IMG/VR virus record: IMGVR_UViG_3300034110_001237
Coordinates: 97,698-161,697 of that record
Origin: a virus
Direction: 5' to 3' (one strand)
Length of the DNA: 64,000 bases
Part shown: piece by piece, positions 45,167-57,812 of the stretch
Numbering within the stretch: position 1 is the first letter of the stretch
Layout: every line of letters starts with the position of its first letter
The notes under the pieces: model-generated
Database searches by the model: none
Told to the model about the DNA's origin: nothing
Seen by the model: the letters and a program-made list of their open reading frames with translations, nothing else
Made by a program: the position numbers and the translations under genes

Positions 45167-46162
45167 ATGTCAAAAATCTTGACCGGCGATAGACCAACAG
45201 GTTCACTTCATCTGGGGCATTTTGTAGGTTCCTTACACAACCGTGTGAAACTTCAGCACTTGCACCAGCAAACTATTTTGATTGCTGATAATCAGGCGTT
45301 AACTGACAATATGGGAAATCCTACGAAAGTCCGTGATAACGTCATTGAAGTTGCTAAAGACTATCTGGCTTGTGGGATTGATCCTAGTAAGACCACTATT
45401 TGTGTTCAATCACACCTTCCGGCTATTGCCGAATTGACATTGCTGTATCTTAACCTTGTAACTGTCTCCCGTTTAGAACGGAATCCTACCATTCGTGATG
45501 AGATTAAAGCCAAGAACTTTGAGCGAAGTATTCCAGCCGGTTTCTTAGCTTATCCAGTAGCACAAGCCGCAGACATTACTGCATTCAAGGCCGATCTTGT
45601 TCCAGTCGGTGAAGACCAGCTTCCATTGATTGAGCAAGCGAATGAAATCGTCCACAAATTAAACACTCAGCTAGGCTTCGAAATTGTTCCATCCATAAAA
45701 GCTCTTACTTCAACAGTGGCACGACTACCAAGCCTTGATGGTAAGTCTAAAATGAGCAAATCGCTTGGTAATACTATCAATCTATACGCAAGCATGAAAG
45801 ACATTCAAAAGGCCGTCAATTTGATGTTTACTGACAGTAATCATCTTCGCGTTGAAGATCCCGGTAAAGTAGAAGGCAACGTGGTGTTTACTTACCTTGA
45901 TGCGTTTGATCCCGATGTGAATGAGGTGGCTAACCTGAAAGAGTTTTATCAGCGTGGTGGTTTAGGTGATGGCACTTTAAAAAAACGTCTGGTTGGTGTT
46001 TTAGAAACGGTTATTGCTCCTATCCGAGAACAAAGACTAATACTCAATACTCAGCATGATTTTGTACTTGATGTGTTGAAGCAAGGTACGTTTCAAGCAA
46101 AAGCTGAAACTGATCAAAACGTCAATGAGATTAAAGATGCTTTTGGTTTTTTTAAATTTTAA
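45167..46162 (+). CDS. trpS: tryptophanyl-tRNA synthetase
   Basis: PTGSLHLGHFVG near the N-terminus (residues ~11-22) carries the class I HIGH motif and SKMSKSLGN (~198-206) the KMSKS motif. Length of 331 aa is normal for the bacterial enzyme. QAADI and PVGEDQ are the usual tryptophan and adenylate elements. AGGAG RBS, own promoter. It charges tRNA-Trp in the cytoplasm. No tRNA-Trp gene is seen in the window. Phage-borne full-length TrpRS is uncommon. Confidence 0.97.
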   Translation: MSKILTGDRPTGSLHLGHFVGSLHNRVKLQHLHQQTILIADNQALTDNMGNPTKVRDNVIEVAKDYLACGIDPSKTTICVQSHLPAIAELTLLYLNLVTVSRLERNPTIRDEIKAKNFERSIPAGFLAYPVAQAADITAFKADLVPVGEDQLPLIEQANEIVHKLNTQLGFEIVPSIKALTSTVARLPSLDGKSKMSKSLGNTINLYASMKDIQKAVNLMFTDSNHLRVEDPGKVEGNVVFTYLDAFDPDVNEVANLKEFYQRGGLGDGTLKKRLVGVLETVIAPIREQRLILNTQHDFVLDVLKQGTFQAKAETDQNVNEIKDAFGFFKF

Positions 46163-48812: not shown

Positions 48813-49148
48813 ATGAGCAGAACAATCCGTCGCAAAAACGACAAATCAAAATACAATTTCGTCAAAACCTTCTTGTTCGATGAGAAAGATTTGGATGAAA
48901 ATGGACTGATCGATTGGTATTGGAATAAAGGTTTCGTCGGTTTAACCTTAGAGCAGGCTAACAAAAAGAAAACGCGGTGGTTCCACTCCTGCAGCGGCCC
49001 ACGCTTCGATTACTGCCCCGGTAAGGCTTACCGTCAGGAATACCGGGCGAAAAGCAAGCAGCAACTCAGGGAGCAATTGAACGTACTCGATGATTACGAA
49101 GCCGTAGCCATCGACAAGATCTGCAACGATTGGCGTTACTGGATGTAA
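48813..49148 (+). CDS. hypothetical protein with GC-rich 3' half, 111 aa
   Basis: GAGGA RBS. Basic N-terminus (MSRTIRRKNDKSKYNFVKTF), with WFHSCSGPRFDYCPGK (Cys pair) in the centre and a basic helical end. From about 48961 the base composition is much more GC-rich and codons differ from the AT-rich window; this suggests recent transfer or a gene from another phage lineage. Function unknown. Confidence 0.83.
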   Translation: MSRTIRRKNDKSKYNFVKTFLFDEKDLDENGLIDWYWNKGFVGLTLEQANKKKTRWFHSCSGPRFDYCPGKAYRQEYRAKSKQQLREQLNVLDDYEAVAIDKICNDWRYWM

Positions 49149-49652: not shown

Positions 49653-50060
49653 ATTGAAAAAGATGAAGAAATAAAAAAGATTATAGGAAAAAAGAAGACG
49701 AAAAAAGCTTGTTCAGGTTTCAAAACGATGGTAAGATAAGCTTCCTTAGACAAACAACTAGCACACTAATGAAGGCCCGAGAGGTGAGCCAAAAATGTAA
49801 AATCTAGACTTAAATTAGATAACCATATTATAGAATTTGATAAGATTAAAACAAACATTAACCGCTAGATATATTAGATTAAGTGCCCGAGGTGAACTAC
49901 CGATGCAGAACTAATTCAAATTATAGATAATCTAATATTGAATGAGTATAATGATGTATAGGAATAGATCAACACGGTGTGGTTTTTTTAAGTGGCAATT
50001 TAACGCCCTCCACCAAATTGATAAGCAGGATAAAAAGACCTCGTTTTGAGGTCTTTTTTT
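49653..50060 (+). ncRNA. long structured RNA, about 400 nt
   Basis: No ORF with an RBS between the promoter and a strong terminator (50032-50060). Helices include AAGCTT with AAGCTT (49706/49737), hairpin ATCTA/TAGAT, an 11-bp stem ATATTAGATTA (49871-49881) with TAATCTAATAT (49928-49938), and hairpin CAATTT (49996-50001) with AAATTG (50015-50020). The last has a loop holding CCCTCCACC, complementary to SD-like GGAGG. Two similar CCCGAG(AG)GTGA segments occur at ~49776 and ~49885. Not tmRNA or RNase P RNA by inspection. Confidence 0.72.
50032..50060 (+). terminator. intrinsic terminator
   Basis: AAAAAGACCTC-GTTTT-GAGGTCTTTTTTT. Confidence 0.9.
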
Positions 50061-50136
50061 ATGCCTTTAAAAAAAGTTGGCGATTTGACAAATATATTAA
50101 AAGGTATATTTGTACGATCAAACATTGGAGCGATAT

Positions 50137-50362: not shown

Positions 50363-50392
50363 GCACTGAATAGCTATCTATTCGGTGCTTTT
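50363..50392 (+). terminator. intrinsic terminator
   Basis: GCACTGAATAG-CTAT-CTATTCGGTGC, an 11-bp hairpin, then TTTT. Confidence 0.88.
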
Positions 50393-50977: not shown

Positions 50978-51006
50978 TTGATTTTATAAGCTATATTTGC
51001 TATAAT
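50978..51006 (+). promoter_or_regulatory. sigma-70-like promoter of structured RNA
   Basis: TTGATT (50978-50983), 17 bp, TATAAT (51001-51006), starting just after the frr stop. Confidence 0.82.
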
Positions 51007-51012
51007 AGCTTT

Positions 51013-51411
51013 GTTGTAAAAATTCGAGACAGCCTTCTTATTAGAGGTGTTTCGATGTGGAAAGCAGGTGATCAACCATAGTTTAGCCTTGAGTTCTAGG
51101 TTACTTGCTTAAAAAAATCAAAGGTGATGTCGCTGCTTAGGGATCTTTTGTGGATGACATGAAGTAACAAAATGAGAGGCTGTCCAGAGAGAGGCAAAAT
51201 CAAAAAAAGAAACAGCAACATGCGGCTAGTCCAGACGAATGTTGTGCTACCACCCCCGACGCTTCCAACGAAAAGAAGGTCAAACTGGATAATACAACTT
51301 GATTGCTTCCACCATGAGAGATTGTGTGTCAGGTCTTTATTAAATGGCATTCATCGCCGCCTGATTTTTTATTTCTAAGAAGACCACTAAATTCGTTAGT
51401 GGTCTTTTTTA
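51013..51411 (+). ncRNA. long structured RNA, about 400 nt
   Basis: No plausible coding frame between promoter and terminator. Helices: CGAGACA with TGTTTCG plus CCT/AGG (about 51024-51054), AAGCAGGT with ACTTGCTT plus AACC/GGTT (about 51061-51110), and further GC-rich sections (ACCACCCCCGACGC region). Composition is richer in GC than the neighbours. Unrecognised; not tmRNA, 6S or RNase P RNA by inspection. Confidence 0.72.
51381..51411 (+). terminator. intrinsic terminator
   Basis: AGACCACTAA-ATTCG-TTAGTGGTCT, 10 bp, then T6. Confidence 0.9.
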
Positions 51412-51463: not shown

Positions 51464-52246
51464 ATGAGTTTTAAAGCAGATATACAGAAATTTAGTTATC
51501 ATGAATGGAGCCAGTTTCCGGCAGAATTTCATGTAGCTATTAAAATGAAATTACTTACGTTGCTTAAAACTGTCTGCAACATCGATCTATCCACAATATC
51601 TTATGATGATGCAAATTATTTTCAATTCGACAGTGATTATAAACAACATCAGAAAATTAAATATCATTTTAATTATACAGGAACAGATGCTGGTGAAGCG
51701 GAAGCTCTTGTTATATTGAGTGGAGAACGATTTTTAGTCACTTTTCAGTTTTACAAAAAGGAAAAGCACCCTAACCTTCCAGCCGGAGCCTATTGTGTCG
51801 ATATCGACGTAGATGAATGGTTAAGATATATTCGTGCAGAATTTGAGACTCGCTATGATTTTGGCTGGAAATTGAGTAATCCGAAACATCGTGCGACTTT
51901 CTTTTTTTATAAAGTTCTTGATAAAAATCTTAAACTAAGCACAGTTATCAATTGTATCAATAGAAATAGTCGTAAAACACATACTTTGCTTAAACCAAAA
52001 GATCTTCCATTCTTGTTTTTTGAAAACAATCATCACTTTTATGACACGTTGAAAGAAATGTTAGAGTGTTGCGAGATGCAACCGAATCTATTCTATTCTG
52101 TATTTGCAGAATACCCAGATCATGTAGAATTAGCATCAAGCAGTGAATCTGTAAAAAAATTTCTGACCTTATACCATGACCAATTTACAAGGGATTCTTC
52201 GATTGTTGAATCAAGGCTTCTTTTACTCGAAATGCAGGCTATTTAA
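51464..52246 (+). CDS. group-B paralog 1 of 7, 260 aa
   Basis: TTGGAGAG RBS. First of a tandem array of about 250-268-residue soluble proteins. Common plan: N-terminal helix, helix with LL[KQ]xx[CY]xIDL, strand, V-x-[VI]D-x-[DN]-[LW] block, helix near the end with F[AP]EYP and a final VESRLLLLEMQAI. This copy is the most divergent and lacks the usual DHDLNF string. Function unknown. Confidence 0.85.
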   Translation: MSFKADIQKFSYHEWSQFPAEFHVAIKMKLLTLLKTVCNIDLSTISYDDANYFQFDSDYKQHQKIKYHFNYTGTDAGEAEALVILSGERFLVTFQFYKKEKHPNLPAGAYCVDIDVDEWLRYIRAEFETRYDFGWKLSNPKHRATFFFYKVLDKNLKLSTVINCINRNSRKTHTLLKPKDLPFLFFENNHHFYDTLKEMLECCEMQPNLFYSVFAEYPDHVELASSSESVKKFLTLYHDQFTRDSSIVESRLLLLEMQAI

Positions 52247-52247
52247 T

Positions 52248-53045
52248 ATGACCACTATTCACACACAATTACTGATGAGCAAAAACATTCATAAGTTTGA
52301 TGATGATCTTAACAATCAAATCATTGAAAAGCTTTTACACATATTACAGTCTATTTTTGATGTCGATTTAATGATTGAATATAAAGATTTCATGTTAAAA
52401 CCAGTTTCATTTGGTATGGCTATTCATGTTGAATACTCGTTTAAATATGGAATGGTGTCTGTGTTAGCAAAAAATAATGAGATGACTGTTTCTTTTGTTT
52501 TTGATCGAGATAAATGCAATAATCTTTATATTCCATTTAACTGCACACGGTGCGAAGTTCTTGTTGATGATGATCTAAACTTTGAAAAAGCTGTTTTTAA
52601 TTTCTATTCAACCATTAATAAACCTAAAATTGAAACTAAATACGCTTCAAAATATGTCGGTTCAGTTTTGGTATCAGATCCTCATCATGCGACTATTGAT
52701 ATTCGTCGGACGATAGATAAACAAGGGAAATTTTCTACATGGATTACTTATGACAATTTTTATTCAAAACTGGGTGATTATACAGAATTAAATATTTCAG
52801 AATTGCATAAAGTATTCTTTACACCAGATAAGCATTTTGAAGAGTTCTTTGTTAAAATAATGATGACATTAAAGACACGGCCTCAAGAGTTTTCTTCTGT
52901 CTTTACTGATTACCCAACCCATACTCAAATTATGCACAATAAAACATTAGCGGTTAACTTTTTGAATTTGTTAGGCGATGACTATTTTAATCGTTTTCAT
53001 GTGTTGGAAGCTAACCTGTTATTACTTGATATGCAGGTCATATGA
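52248..53045 (+). CDS. group-B paralog 2 of 7, 265 aa
   Basis: The ATG follows the previous stop by 1 nt; the SD is AGG in ATGCAGG, the Met-Gln codons of the previous gene. Contains VLVDDDLNFEKAVFNFYS, FSSVFTDYP and the tail EANLLLLDMQVI. Function unknown. Confidence 0.85.
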   Translation: MTTIHTQLLMSKNIHKFDDDLNNQIIEKLLHILQSIFDVDLMIEYKDFMLKPVSFGMAIHVEYSFKYGMVSVLAKNNEMTVSFVFDRDKCNNLYIPFNCTRCEVLVDDDLNFEKAVFNFYSTINKPKIETKYASKYVGSVLVSDPHHATIDIRRTIDKQGKFSTWITYDNFYSKLGDYTELNISELHKVFFTPDKHFEEFFVKIMMTLKTRPQEFSSVFTDYPTHTQIMHNKTLAVNFLNLLGDDYFNRFHVLEANLLLLDMQVI

Positions 53046-53046
53046 C

Positions 53047-53832
53047 ATGACTACACTCTTAGATAGAATTTCAATCATACAAAAAGAACAGCTTCCTGAT
53101 GATCTTGATTTTGACATTTCAAGTAAATTAAAAACATTGTTGAAAATTACTTTTAATGAAAACTTGTCAGACCCATATGATCTGAATTGTATTGAGCTTT
53201 TAGAGGTTTTTATTTATGACAACAATAAAAAAATAGACATTTCGTATTTTTTCAAATTTGGTATAGCTTTAATTTATTTTCATCGTGATCTTGGTATGTT
53301 GAAAGTTTTATTTCTATGTAATCAAAATAATAATAATTTATATAATTGTGATGTCAATTATGAAGTAGTTGTTGATGACGACCTTAATTTTCAAAGTTTC
53401 TCATTCTGGCGATTATTTGAATTCTCGAAGGACTTTAGAGACAATAAAAAATATACGGCGGCATGGTCAAACTTATTATTTCATATTGAAATGGATAATT
53501 TTTTCAATTTTAGTAAAAATTTTCTATATCGTAATGAAGAAAGTTATAATATATCACCAGATGATAAAAAAAATCTTTTTGATTATGGACTAAATCCTGT
53601 TTTTTATCTTTCTAGCCGTCATTTTGATGAGTTGTTGTTAAAATTTTTAAAATATTGCATAGTAAATACTCAACATTTTTATGTTATGTTTCCTCATTAT
53701 CCAAATCATATTTGCTGTATGCAATCACTCAGTAAAACAGTTGACTTGTTAAATATTTTTTGTGAAGAATATAGAGACAATTTGACAATTTTGGAGTATA
53801 ATCTCTTATTACTTGATATGCAGGGCATTTAA
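53047..53832 (+). CDS. group-B paralog 3 of 7, 261 aa
   Basis: Starts 1 nt after the stop of paralog 2 (TGAC then ATG). VVVDDDLNFQSFSFW, FYVMFPHYPNHI, then EYNLLLLDMQGI. More divergent, with Asn-rich segments. Function unknown. Confidence 0.85.
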   Translation: MTTLLDRISIIQKEQLPDDLDFDISSKLKTLLKITFNENLSDPYDLNCIELLEVFIYDNNKKIDISYFFKFGIALIYFHRDLGMLKVLFLCNQNNNNLYNCDVNYEVVVDDDLNFQSFSFWRLFEFSKDFRDNKKYTAAWSNLLFHIEMDNFFNFSKNFLYRNEESYNISPDDKKNLFDYGLNPVFYLSSRHFDELLLKFLKYCIVNTQHFYVMFPHYPNHICCMQSLSKTVDLLNIFCEEYRDNLTILEYNLLLLDMQGI

Positions 53833-53833
53833 A

Positions 53834-54598
53834 ATGACTAACATCTATGACGCAATGGTACACTTTAAAAAGACCAAAGAATCTCTATGGGGGATTAGTC
53901 CATTGGTTAGCTCTAAACTTGTGCCCTTATTTCAACAGGCTACTGGCATAGAGCTTCTGGGTGATGAACAGCATTTCACCAACAATATCAGCGTCTGTGG
54001 TTTGGAAGTCGCTATGGATTACTTCTTTAAATACGGCTCAGCCACATTAAGTTTGAAAAATGATGAGCTAGAAGTAGGTTTTTATTTTATTAATAAACCA
54101 GATGATGTTTATCCGACTCCCTTTGATGCCAAACAATGTAGGGTTTATATTGATCGTGATTTTAACTTTAAACAGGCTATTTTCAATTATCATGTTAGTT
54201 TTTCCAAAGCTCTTCTAAATAATTATGACAAAAGTGCTGTATATGCAGCCATTAAAATTCAAAAAATCATTGAACAGGAATCAACAAGAACTACTTTTGG
54301 CTATCAAAATCTACTTTCTAAAGCAAAAGAGTATACGTCACTTCATGATAAAGGGCTTGATGAGGATTTCTTTGAAACTGATGTGAAATTTGAATTGTTT
54401 TTTGTTAAGTTCATGGAAACTTGTGCTAAAAGACCTTACGAGTTCTATGAATTATTTCCAGAATATCCAAGCTATATTGATTTCATGGAAAAGATGTACA
54501 AAGCAGTTGAATTCTTGAACCTATTTAACTTCCAATACATTAATCAGTTTGAGGTGTTAGAATCTAAACTTATCTTACTTGATATGCAGGTTATTTAA
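53834..54598 (+). CDS. group-B paralog 4 of 7, 254 aa
   Basis: Stop-to-start distance 1 nt, SD in the preceding ATGCAGG. VYIDRDFNFKQAIFNYHVSFS, FYELFPEYPSYIDFM and ESKLILLDMQVI. Function unknown. Confidence 0.85.
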   Translation: MTNIYDAMVHFKKTKESLWGISPLVSSKLVPLFQQATGIELLGDEQHFTNNISVCGLEVAMDYFFKYGSATLSLKNDELEVGFYFINKPDDVYPTPFDAKQCRVYIDRDFNFKQAIFNYHVSFSKALLNNYDKSAVYAAIKIQKIIEQESTRTTFGYQNLLSKAKEYTSLHDKGLDEDFFETDVKFELFFVKFMETCAKRPYEFYELFPEYPSYIDFMEKMYKAVEFLNLFNFQYINQFEVLESKLILLDMQVI

Positions 54599-54599
54599 T

Positions 54600-55406
54600 A
54601 TGAAAACAATTTATGAGCAATTGATGGAATTGAAAGATGTAAAAAGTCTTCATAGATCGGAGACAACTTTATTTTTAGGTGCCGATTGTATTGTTGGTGA
54701 CGATGTTATTGATGATATTTTAGTTAACGAGAAACTTATAGAGTTGTTTTACAAAGCTTACAGTATTCAAGAACCCCTTGAACAAATTTTTTTTGAGAGG
54801 AATATATCATCTATTGGCCTTCGAATAAGTGTCGCTTATAATTTTCAGTATGGTTCAGTTCACCTTGCAGTTGAAAACAACAAACTATTAGTGACTTTTT
54901 ATCATAAAGATGACTGGTTTAAAGCTCCATTTGGAGCAGATCGTTGTATGGTTTCTGTAGATCATAATTTGAATTTTATTCAATCTGAATATTCTACTTA
55001 TTTTGCATTTTTAAACAGTGTTCTGCATAACAATGGTGGGTATGCTGGATATAACCATATGCAGATTAAACAATTTACTGATTCTGCTGGTACACGCAAT
55101 CAACTTGCTTTTTGTCACCCTGATGACAATGACGATTTATTTAAAGCAGCACCAGAAGGCAAGCTGGATAAACGTTTTTCTATACCCAATGTTCAATTTG
55201 AGAATACATTTCTTCAAATTATTGATTTTGTGACAGATAGACCGCATGAATTTTATGCTATTTTTCCTGAGTATCCAAGTTTTTCTGAATGCGTAGATAG
55301 TGCAGATGGAATTATTAACTTTGTTAACTTATTTGTTGAACAGTATTTTAATGACAATGAACGCTTACAACAACACTTGTTATTACTTGATATGCAGGCG
55401 ATTTAA
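54600..55406 (+). CDS. group-B paralog 5 of 7, 268 aa
   Basis: Starts 1 nt after the previous stop. VSVDHNLNFIQSEYSTYFAF, FYAIFPEYPSFSECV and QQHLLLLDMQAI. Function unknown. Confidence 0.85.
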   Translation: MKTIYEQLMELKDVKSLHRSETTLFLGADCIVGDDVIDDILVNEKLIELFYKAYSIQEPLEQIFFERNISSIGLRISVAYNFQYGSVHLAVENNKLLVTFYHKDDWFKAPFGADRCMVSVDHNLNFIQSEYSTYFAFLNSVLHNNGGYAGYNHMQIKQFTDSAGTRNQLAFCHPDDNDDLFKAAPEGKLDKRFSIPNVQFENTFLQIIDFVTDRPHEFYAIFPEYPSFSECVDSADGIINFVNLFVEQYFNDNERLQQHLLLLDMQAI

Positions 55407-55407
55407 T

Positions 55408-56163
55408 ATGATGACACTTTATGAACAGTTTACTGCAGTTAGAACAGCCGAGAAAAACTGGATGTATAAACCTGATGTTCAACAAAAATTGATTGATATA
55501 TTTAAAATCGTTTGTAACATCGATCTTTCTAGTGAAGAGATTCCATTTAAACCAGATGGTGGATCTTTTGGAATGGAAATTGTGTATAACTATAAATTTA
55601 AATATGGTAGAGTCTATGTTCAAACTGAAAAACAAGAAATGCAAGTTATGTTTATTTTTGATAACCCTCATGAATTAAATATTCCTTTTACGAATCATTC
55701 ACGATCAAACCGTTGTACAGTTAAGGTTGATCATAATTTGAACTTTATAGAAGCTCGTTTTGGTTTTTACAGGTCTTTTTCCAATAGAACATTGGTTAAA
55801 GATGTCTCTGGTTACGTTTTATTTCGTTTTGAAACCATAAACGATGGTACTAACATCTTTAATAGTGTTTCTTACAGTTACAGCATGGAATCGGATGACT
55901 ATATAGATTTAATTCCCTATGGTCTTATCGATTATTCAATACCTAATAATGACTTTGAACAAATATTAATGGATTTTATGACTTTTTGTTCCGAAGAACC
56001 AGAAGATTTCTATAACGTTTTTGTTGAATATCCGAATTACGATGATCTTATGACCAGCGTTGACAACTTGGTTATATTCTTAAACCTTCTAAAACAACAA
56101 TACATTGAAAACAGAGAAATTTTGCAATCACGTATATTGTTATTAACCATGCAGGCAATCTAA
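55408..56163 (+). CDS. group-B paralog 6 of 7, 251 aa
   Basis: ATG ATG at 55408, 1 nt after the previous stop. VKVDHNLNFIEARFGFYRSFS, FYNVFVEYPNYDDLM and QSRILLLTMQAI. Function unknown. Confidence 0.85.
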   Translation: MMTLYEQFTAVRTAEKNWMYKPDVQQKLIDIFKIVCNIDLSSEEIPFKPDGGSFGMEIVYNYKFKYGRVYVQTEKQEMQVMFIFDNPHELNIPFTNHSRSNRCTVKVDHNLNFIEARFGFYRSFSNRTLVKDVSGYVLFRFETINDGTNIFNSVSYSYSMESDDYIDLIPYGLIDYSIPNNDFEQILMDFMTFCSEEPEDFYNVFVEYPNYDDLMTSVDNLVIFLNLLKQQYIENREILQSRILLLTMQAI

Positions 56164-56165
56164 TT

Positions 56166-56930
56166 ATGACCACTTTCTATGATAGACTTTTATTTGCAAA
56201 AGATTCAACTGACTTACTTTCCGATATTTTAGATGAAATCAGTCAAAAATTACTGCAATTATTGTATGAGTCTTGTCATATTGATTTATCTCATATTGAT
56301 GAACCATTCGTGATGGCTCATCTCGGTACAGATAAAGACTTACATATTCAATACAATACTGTTTTTGGTGGAGCTAACTTTTCATTATTATCTTCTACAC
56401 ATGAGCTAGAGGTTGAATTTGATTTTTCAAAGGAATACCCTACAGACTACTATTACAAGTCAAAATATTGTTACCTAGAAATTGATAATGATATGAACTT
56501 AAAAAAAACTAGATTCAACAACGCTTTTCCATTTTCAAAAGCTGTTTTGGACGGTGCGTATGCTAGTCATGTTTTTTCTTCTCTTCGTATTGATACTTAT
56601 GTTGACTATCTATCAAATGTGTCGAAACATTTTAGTTATGAAAACTACCTCTATCATACATTTCCAAAAGATATGCGAGCTTATGGATTGAGTGCTTATT
56701 TTTATTTTACGAATAAAGATTTTGAAGATCTGTTAGCCACTTTCCTATTTCTTGCGGGTAATCATCCTTTTATCTTTTATGAGTTCTTTAAAGAATATCC
56801 AAGCTATATTGACTTAATGAACAGTATTGATCATATGATTCAATTTTTGGAACTTTTCAAAAACCAATATATTAATGATCCTGATTTATTAAAATCAAAC
56901 ATATTGTTAATTGAAATGAAGTTAATTTAA
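56166..56930 (+). CDS. group-B paralog 7 of 7, 254 aa
   Basis: 2 nt after the previous stop. LEIDNDMNLKKTRFNNAFPFS, FYEFFKEYPSYIDLM and KSNILLIEMKLI: the tail keeps Met but has lost Gln. Last of the array; 63 nt then separate it from the sirtuin. Function unknown. Confidence 0.85.
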   Translation: MTTFYDRLLFAKDSTDLLSDILDEISQKLLQLLYESCHIDLSHIDEPFVMAHLGTDKDLHIQYNTVFGGANFSLLSSTHELEVEFDFSKEYPTDYYYKSKYCYLEIDNDMNLKKTRFNNAFPFSKAVLDGAYASHVFSSLRIDTYVDYLSNVSKHFSYENYLYHTFPKDMRAYGLSAYFYFTNKDFEDLLATFLFLAGNHPFIFYEFFKEYPSYIDLMNSIDHMIQFLELFKNQYINDPDLLKSNILLIEMKLI

Positions 56931-56993: not shown

Positions 56994-57812
56994 ATGCTGG
57001 AGCGTATATTTAAAGCAAAAACTGATTATGACAAAGCTATTTTGGATAAAGTCGATGTGGCTGATTATAAACCCAAGATCACCTTCTTTACTGGCTCAGG
57101 CATCTCTCAAGAGAGTGGTTTGGAGACGTTTCGTTCCAGTGATGGTCTATGGTGTAATCACCGCGTCGATGAAGTAGCCACGGCCAAAGCTCTTCAAAAA
57201 GACTTTAAGAAAGTAAACAACTTTTTCAATGACAGACGTAAAGAAGTGTTGGCTGCTCAGCCTAATCGATCTCATCACATCCTAAAAGAACTAGAACAAT
57301 ACTTTGAAGTCATTGTAGTCACCCAAAACGTGGATGATTTGCATGAGCGAGCTGGTAGTTCAAAGATCTATCATTTACATGGTGAAATCATGCGTTCTCG
57401 CCCGGTCGGCAACTCAAACGTGTTCTACGACCAGAAGAAAGATATTAAGGTTGGTGACAAGTGCATGTTAACTAGATCACAAATTAGACCGCACATTGTT
57501 TTATTTGATGAGATGTTGGACGATGGGATCTTGTCAAACGCTCGAAAGCATATCAGAGAGTCCGATGTGTTTGTGGTAGTGGGTAGCAGTTTACAAGTTG
57601 AACCTGCAGCTTCTCTGGTGGTTGAGGGCTTTGGTTTGCGTGATTTTGTTTTGGTCGATCCAAACACTGTCTTTATGAAGTACAATGCCAACTATGTGCA
57701 TGTTAAAGAAAATGCCTCAGTAGGACTTGAAATGATGTTGCCTCAGTTAATTATTAAAGCTGGCTTGCTTCAAGCAGATTTCAAAGCAAACAAAGAACGA
57801 TTGAAACCATAG
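56994..57812 (+). CDS. CobB-type sirtuin (NAD-dependent deacylase), 272 aa
   Basis: GSGISQESGLETFR (residues ~34-47), FFNDRRKEV (~76-84), TQNVDDLHERAG (~110-121), YHLHGE (catalytic His, ~127-132) and GSSLQVEPAASLV (~205-217) follow the order of CobB. ETFRSSDGLW matches the class III bacterial type, but the Y-x-x-R deacylase specificity motif reads F-x-x-R. The four zinc-ligand Cys are absent, so it lacks a structural zinc. Likely removes acyl groups from lysines using NAD+, in the cytoplasm. Target unknown. Confidence 0.92.
   Translation: MLERIFKAKTDYDKAILDKVDVADYKPKITFFTGSGISQESGLETFRSSDGLWCNHRVDEVATAKALQKDFKKVNNFFNDRRKEVLAAQPNRSHHILKELEQYFEVIVVTQNVDDLHERAGSSKIYHLHGEIMRSRPVGNSNVFYDQKKDIKVGDKCMLTRSQIRPHIVLFDEMLDDGILSNARKHIRESDVFVVVGSSLQVEPAASLVVEGFGLRDFVLVDPNTVFMKYNANYVHVKENASVGLEMMLPQLIIKAGLLQADFKANKERLKP

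Follow-up and report, generated by a model that had tools for sequence, protein, structure and literature searches.

Lambda bar is a natural minigene that lies outside an array, whereas RNA1, one of the two phage RNAs considered here, arrays 2–3 minigenes in a dedicated transcript. Minigene expression depletes tRNA and inhibits translation through peptidyl-tRNA accumulation and tRNA starvation, and the drop-off of peptidyl-tRNA is promoted by RRF, EF-G and RF3, among others (PMC8012679). The RNA1 units, which consist of a Shine-Dalgarno sequence (SD), AUG, 0–2 codons and a stop, should act like lambda bar and the synthetic two-codon minigenes, with RRF as the known drop-off factor (PMC8012679), while RNA2, the main subject of this study, is itself not a conserved minigene. 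Huge phages carry RRF together with further translation genes (PMC7162821). GOLLD and ROOL (Rfam; PMC12286853) occur in phages, and their function is unknown; like RNA2, they are large, structured and expressed on their own, which for RNA2 is a prediction. GOLLD combines a conserved 3' region with a variable 5' region, and RNA2 partly does likewise. In addition, tmRNA and bacterial RNase P RNA are similar to RNA2 in length; tmRNA shares the translation context, and in RNase P RNA the body is closed by a long-range helix as in RNA2.

The window, by which we mean the whole stretch of 64,000 nucleotides analysed, belongs to a viral record of 161.7 kb. The 488-base gap between frr, encoding a ribosome recycling factor, and the next gene at 51464 holds a promoter, a folded region and a terminator (Table 1). 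An earlier note, made from the sequence alone, had described this gap as a second long structured RNA with a near-consensus promoter, a 10-bp terminator, two stable hairpins at the 5' end and a GC-rich body. Much of this description was borne out. The predicted promoter is of the sigma-70 type, with a transcription start expected near 51013. A single site of this type is near chance level (35 found versus 26.6 expected), and the −35 element, the spacing and the extended −10 element recur in 5/5 homologs (in the most divergent one, L107 of contig G004, the spacer is 16 and the promoter reads TTGAAA-16-TATAAT with ATGC before the −10 element). The terminator is present, with a U tract and with G-C/A-U changes between phages, but its stem is longer than stated, having 14 pairs in the fold. 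Both 5' hairpins, P1 and P3, are supported by compensatory changes. The body is GC-rich relative to the genome only (40.7% versus 33.7%; 92.5th percentile among stretches of the window). The first long RNA implied by the word "second" is real and conserved, and is RNA1.

Table 1 Features of the RNA1–frr–RNA2 region (window positions unless a contig is named)
Feature	Position	Strand	Evidence or remark
RNA1, minigene array with P10-like 3' hairpin	49653-50062	+	conserved in 5/5 phages
RNA1 minigene unit 1, GAGGUG-N8-AUG-UAA	49780-49800	+	
RNA1 minigene unit 2, GAGGUG-N8-AUG-CAG-AAC-UAA	49889-49914	+	
RNA1 P10-like 3' hairpin	49978-50014	+	
RNA1 copies elsewhere	L002 3030-3615; L105 1700-2260; L103 2280-2790; L115 6170-6650		
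frr-leader minigene, AAGGAGG...AUG UCU AGC GAU GCG UCU UAA	50315-50335	+	MS[SG]DAS-stop kept in 4/4 frr phages
Terminator after frr-leader minigene	50363-50388	+	
frr, ribosome recycling factor, 185 aa	50418-50975	+	Pfam RRF E=3.6e-49
RNA2 predicted promoter, −35 TTGATT, 17-nt spacer, extended −10 TGC-TATAAT	50978-51006	+	10/12 matches
RNA2, structured non-coding RNA, ~395 nt	51013-51408	+	fold; homologs L002, L003, L004, L107/L115
Hairpin P1	51025-51054	+	3 compensatory pairs, four phages; in L107 new sequence, hairpin retained
P2 5' strand GUGGA, partner of 51308-51312, closing the multi-helix body	51057-51061	+	predicted
Hairpin P3, 12+3 bp, conserved loop UUURGCCUUGARUU	51062-51110	+	5 compensatory pairs
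Hairpin P5, internal loop, U-rich apical loop	51127-51160	+	1 compensatory, 2 one-sided changes
Short hairpin P6 (weak)	51181-51196	+	1 compensatory, 3 one-sided changes
Hairpin P7	51216-51244	+	3/5 pairs compensatory; GAUAGC/GCUAUC in L107
Hairpin P8	51262-51278	+	2 compensatory pairs
Hairpin P9, loop ACUGGAUAAUACAAC invariant in four close relatives	51280-51302	+	2 compensatory pairs
P2 3' strand UCCAC, then CA	51308-51312	+	invariant in 5/5
3' hairpin P10 (GUCAGGUCUUUAUUAAAUGGC...GCCGCCUGAU), most conserved RNA2 element	51328-51365	+	resembles hairpin ending RNA1
RNA2 intrinsic terminator, 11-bp core stem 51380-51406 and U tract	51380-51410	+	covariation between phages

A protein search with RRF yielded three related viral contigs, L002, L003 and L004, all of which carry RNA2 directly after frr. 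The window and L002 (frr protein 91% identical) form clade A, L003 and L004 form clade B. Within clade A, RNA2 is 95.7% identical and frr DNA 85.0%; the corresponding values in clade B are 97.3% and 92.6%. As RNA2 is thus more identical than frr DNA within the clades, it is under stronger constraint than the adjacent gene at short range. Between the clades the identity of RNA2 drops to 66–69%, and this divergence proceeded in a structured way. The four sequences were aligned by hand and the rows checked against the sequences, because MAFFT misplaced P1 and P3. The count covers ten helices: P1, P2, P3, the inner portion of P3 as a helix of its own, and P5 to P10. In this alignment, which the earlier note had proposed as a check, all 16 doubly changed paired positions between the window and L003 in clade B still pair, and the RNAalifold consensus of the four sequences reaches −63.9 kcal/mol compared with −33.4 ± 5.1 when its columns were shuffled 200 times (z = −6.0); both values are somewhat flattering, since the same sequences in part guided the choice of helices and the alignment of the rows. 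Pairing is also kept at 9/10 singly changed paired positions, and clade B has lost one pair of P9. With RNAalifold, 16 compensatory pairs were already apparent in the plain MAFFT alignment. Folding of RNA2 as a single sequence is moderately better than that of shuffles (z = −2.5). P2, both strands of which are invariant in 5/5 phages, and P10 hardly vary, so that covariation gives no test of these two helices.

The fifth homolog, which is independent of the four-sequence alignment, is found in the 437-kb viral contig G004 and was reached by searching with a small protein encoded nearby. A covariance model of the other four phages matches this homolog over its full length (34.1 bits, E ~3e-9). 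In G004 the sequences of P1, P3 and P7 differ strongly (P3 is replaced in L107 by CCAUAGGA/UCCUAUGG), with order and places unchanged; the layout of P5 is unchanged in L107, and P2 and P10 are nearly letter for letter identical to those of the other RNA2s. The record of G004 gave no RRF match and its RNA2 is flanked by unrelated genes, from which we conclude that adjacency to frr is not a fixed feature of the RNA2 family. The sample of five homologs amounts to one deep split and one distant member, in records which IMG/VR labels as viral and which may be fragmentary; none of those with RNA2 matched terminase (PF03237). The gene located 3' of RNA2 is not conserved either: it encodes a member of a paralog family in the window and its relatives, and an unrelated 139-aa protein in G004. 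This speaks against RNA2 as a cis-acting leader, a riboswitch or an attenuator, of the downstream gene. The succession of promoter, structured region, terminator and same-strand gene has the layout of an attenuated leader; however, no conserved alternative pairing with the RNA2 terminator was seen, and we regard such a leader as improbable. In the window, paralogous proteins of ~250 aa with ends LLLLDMQAI or similar stand in tandem at 51464–56930; the first of them had no match in Pfam, PHROGs or named phages, and the order and number in the array vary among the relatives. A Sir2-family protein is encoded at 56994–57812.

Coding evidence had been named in the earlier note as an argument against an RNA, and no open reading frame common to clades A and B was found in RNA2 on either strand. 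RNA2 could nevertheless be a messenger for short reading frames: in the window GAGGUG-N5-AUG starts MWKAGDQP-stop, with the same SD as the RNA1 units (the phage record has only five sites of this kind), and P10 holds AUG GCN UUC AUC GCC GCC UGA. L003 and L004 have lost this SD, and in L107 the AUG stands in another frame. The P10 reading frame is shifted in L107, and in the window its extension in the upstream direction is broken; we consider a messenger very improbable. A minigene RNA of the lambda bar type was rejected for RNA2 as well, since the SD-AUG, followed through for 8 codons, occurs only in the window and L002 and is absent from L003, L004 and L107. Considered as a tmRNA, RNA2 has an internal UUCCACCA and, in some members, a short reading frame near the 3' end (MAFIAA-stop in P10). 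In contrast to tmRNA it lacks a T-loop and a conserved tag reading frame, the extended frame being interrupted in the window and lost or shifted in L107, and ARAGORN and Rfam were negative. ARAGORN reported only a tRNA-Cys in the window.

The Rfam search recommended in the earlier note gave no match for the RNA2 region at gathering thresholds. At E ≤ 10, searches of Rfam 15 with the window, L002, L003 and L107 returned only terminator-like chance matches. RNase P RNA, group I intron and 6S were rejected as they had no match at this threshold, and no conserved-region motif of RNase P RNA was recognised by eye. The same searches cover GOLLD, ROOL and OLE and thereby bear on the idea that RNA2 is a structural or scaffold RNA of their kind, acting via its own fold or as a scaffold for protein or RNA and not tied in particular to minigenes or RRF. 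RNA2 is phage-borne, multi-helical and strongly constrained, it has a predicted promoter and terminator and its function is not obvious, all of which would suit such a role. On the other hand, it is unrelated to GOLLD and ROOL by covariance models, it had no match to GOLLD, ROOL or OLE even at E = 10, it is clearly shorter with ~395 nt compared to >800 nt for many GOLLD and ~660 for ROOL, and it lies outside a tRNA island, the only tRNA of the window being 40 kb away. We consider a scaffold role less likely than not, though only slightly behind the translation-control role preferred below.

Outside the known relatives, RNA2 was not encountered. A DNA similarity search against named phages and plasmids gave no match beyond the terminator. 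Pattern scans of viral contigs returned only the three known relatives and the 437-kb contig, the remaining matches being chance, as were all 41 matches in genome contigs. In 274 genomes of the class to which an Acinetobacter genome belongs, the RNA2 model gave two weak matches, partial or gapped, of 19–21 bits, which we take as chance. Because the fold recurs and covaries, conservation exceeds that of frr DNA, and both a conserved reading frame and an Rfam match are lacking, RNA2 represents a new family of structured non-coding RNA. With compensatory changes in conserved helices, a promoter with a terminator and no conserved coding capacity, RNA2 is an independent transcription unit as far as predicted signals can tell. 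The comparative analysis, in which the folding is decisive, makes it almost certain that RNA2 is real and structured, as the earlier note had it.

RNA1 lies ~1–4.5 kb from RNA2 in 5/5 phages and has a predicted terminator of its own. It comprises 14 units across the five phages, each built as GAGGUG-N7/8-AUG-(0–2 codons)-stop, with the types AUG-UAA, AUG-CAG-UAA, AUG-CAG-AAC-UAA, AUG-CAG-AUU-UAA, AUG-GAG-UAA, AUG-CCG-UAA and AUG-CCG-UAG. Additions are of whole codons and preserve the frame, and a stop follows within 3 codons in all units as compared with 13–17% of the ATGs in the window phage. RNA1 is therefore best read as an array of putative minigenes, possibly a more surprising finding than RNA2. 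Its 3' hairpin resembles P10 of RNA2 (GGUCUUACCAAAUGAC..GUC in G004 versus GGUCUUUACCAAAUGGC..GCC in L003). In itself this likeness is weak, as an RNA2-only model scores the RNA1 hairpin sites at just E 2 to 8 per genome, and its force comes only from the position at the exact 3' end of RNA1: in G004 the chance of a P10-like match there is ~2e-4 by rough arithmetic (E = 2.1, ~0.87 Mb on both strands, ~100 bases allowed). The inner stem of the RNA1 hairpin shows a paired change from GGC/GCC to GAC/GUC in L002 and G004; single-sequence folding prefers a somewhat different inner pairing. Prediction of an RNA1–RNA2 duplex gave nothing better than shuffles, in a crude test in which the tool produced near full-length duplexes.

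The constant company of RNA1 in 5/5 phages also argues against RNA2 as a trans-acting regulator unrelated to translation, a protein sponge or an antisense RNA to host or phage mRNAs. Conserved unpaired stretches, AAAAAAUCAAAGGU and the loops of P3 and P9, would be available for binding. No target was found, though, and the structure is conserved far beyond the needs of a simple antisense RNA, so that we judge such a regulator unlikely.

The frr gene is present in 4/5 phages with RNA2 and absent from G004. Its leader holds a minigene of 6 codons with a perfect SD, and the order of minigene and terminator is conserved in 4/4 frr phages; judged from its sequence, this leader looks like an attenuator or a sensor of ribosome recycling. 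In the 437-kb phage, a short SD minigene (AAAGGAG, AUG CUA AGG UUU UAA; L115 6761–6788) precedes a paralog of a 111-aa protein. Matches to frr in named "phage" records look like pieces of bacterial chromosomes. A small conserved Cys-containing protein (WFHSC..YCPGK..YRQEYRAKSKQQLREQL; window 48813–49148, L106 5001–5324, L107 276–605) had no Pfam match and is always encoded a few kb from RNA1 and RNA2. A relative with 37% occurs in Pseudomonas phage Cygsa01, where the neighbourhood is gene-packed as annotated and gave no match to the RNA2 model. The window also encodes a phage-borne tryptophanyl-tRNA synthetase (trpS, 45167–46162), the nearest among the named records searched being from Acinetobacter (67–68%). 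Two RNA ligases, one of them T4 Rnl1-like, are encoded in the same record outside the window (L016 14223–15305, L017 7764–9047), which suggests a possible tRNA repair against host anticodon nucleases and fits a phage origin without proving it.

We hypothesize that RNA2 is a trans-acting RNA in phage translation control alongside RNA1, a reading to which we assign a probability of roughly 0.35. The earlier note had seen RNA2 as translation-related because of its position beside frr. That argument is weakened, as G004 has RNA2 and gave no RRF match, and a carrier without frr counts against a translation module. A relevance to translation is still indicated, circumstantially, by the minigene array as neighbour in 5/5 phages, the P10-like end of that array, trpS and the minigene in the frr leader. 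In the proposed mechanism, the minigenes of RNA1 would load ribosomes, abort at once and release ribosomes and peptidyl-tRNAs. The P10-like 3' hairpin just before the terminator in both RNAs could be a docking site for one shared factor, either a protein of the phage or a factor associated with the ribosome. By using or titrating this factor, RNA2 might set the activity or the lifetime of RNA1, and the phage RRF, where present, would free the minigenes of ribosomes and peptidyl-tRNAs. The complete two-RNA module, in which RNA1 would capture ribosomes and tRNAs of the host and RNA2, sharing the 3' docking hairpin of RNA1, would control it, mostly together with a minigene-led phage RRF, is a speculative extension that we think unlikely to hold in full.

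In conclusion, RNA2 gives large phages a well-supported family of structured RNA that Rfam 15 does not contain. RNA2 is the first described member of this family, which is so far confined to a single group of large phages that are uncultured, with no cultured representative to date among the named records searched. Should the link to minigenes and RRF hold, these phages would attack or steer translation by means of an RNA that offers only start and stop codons, and the known biochemistry of minigenes and drop-off would become testable in a natural setting. The complete two-RNA module, if true, would represent a new RNA-based route for the takeover of translation by a virus.
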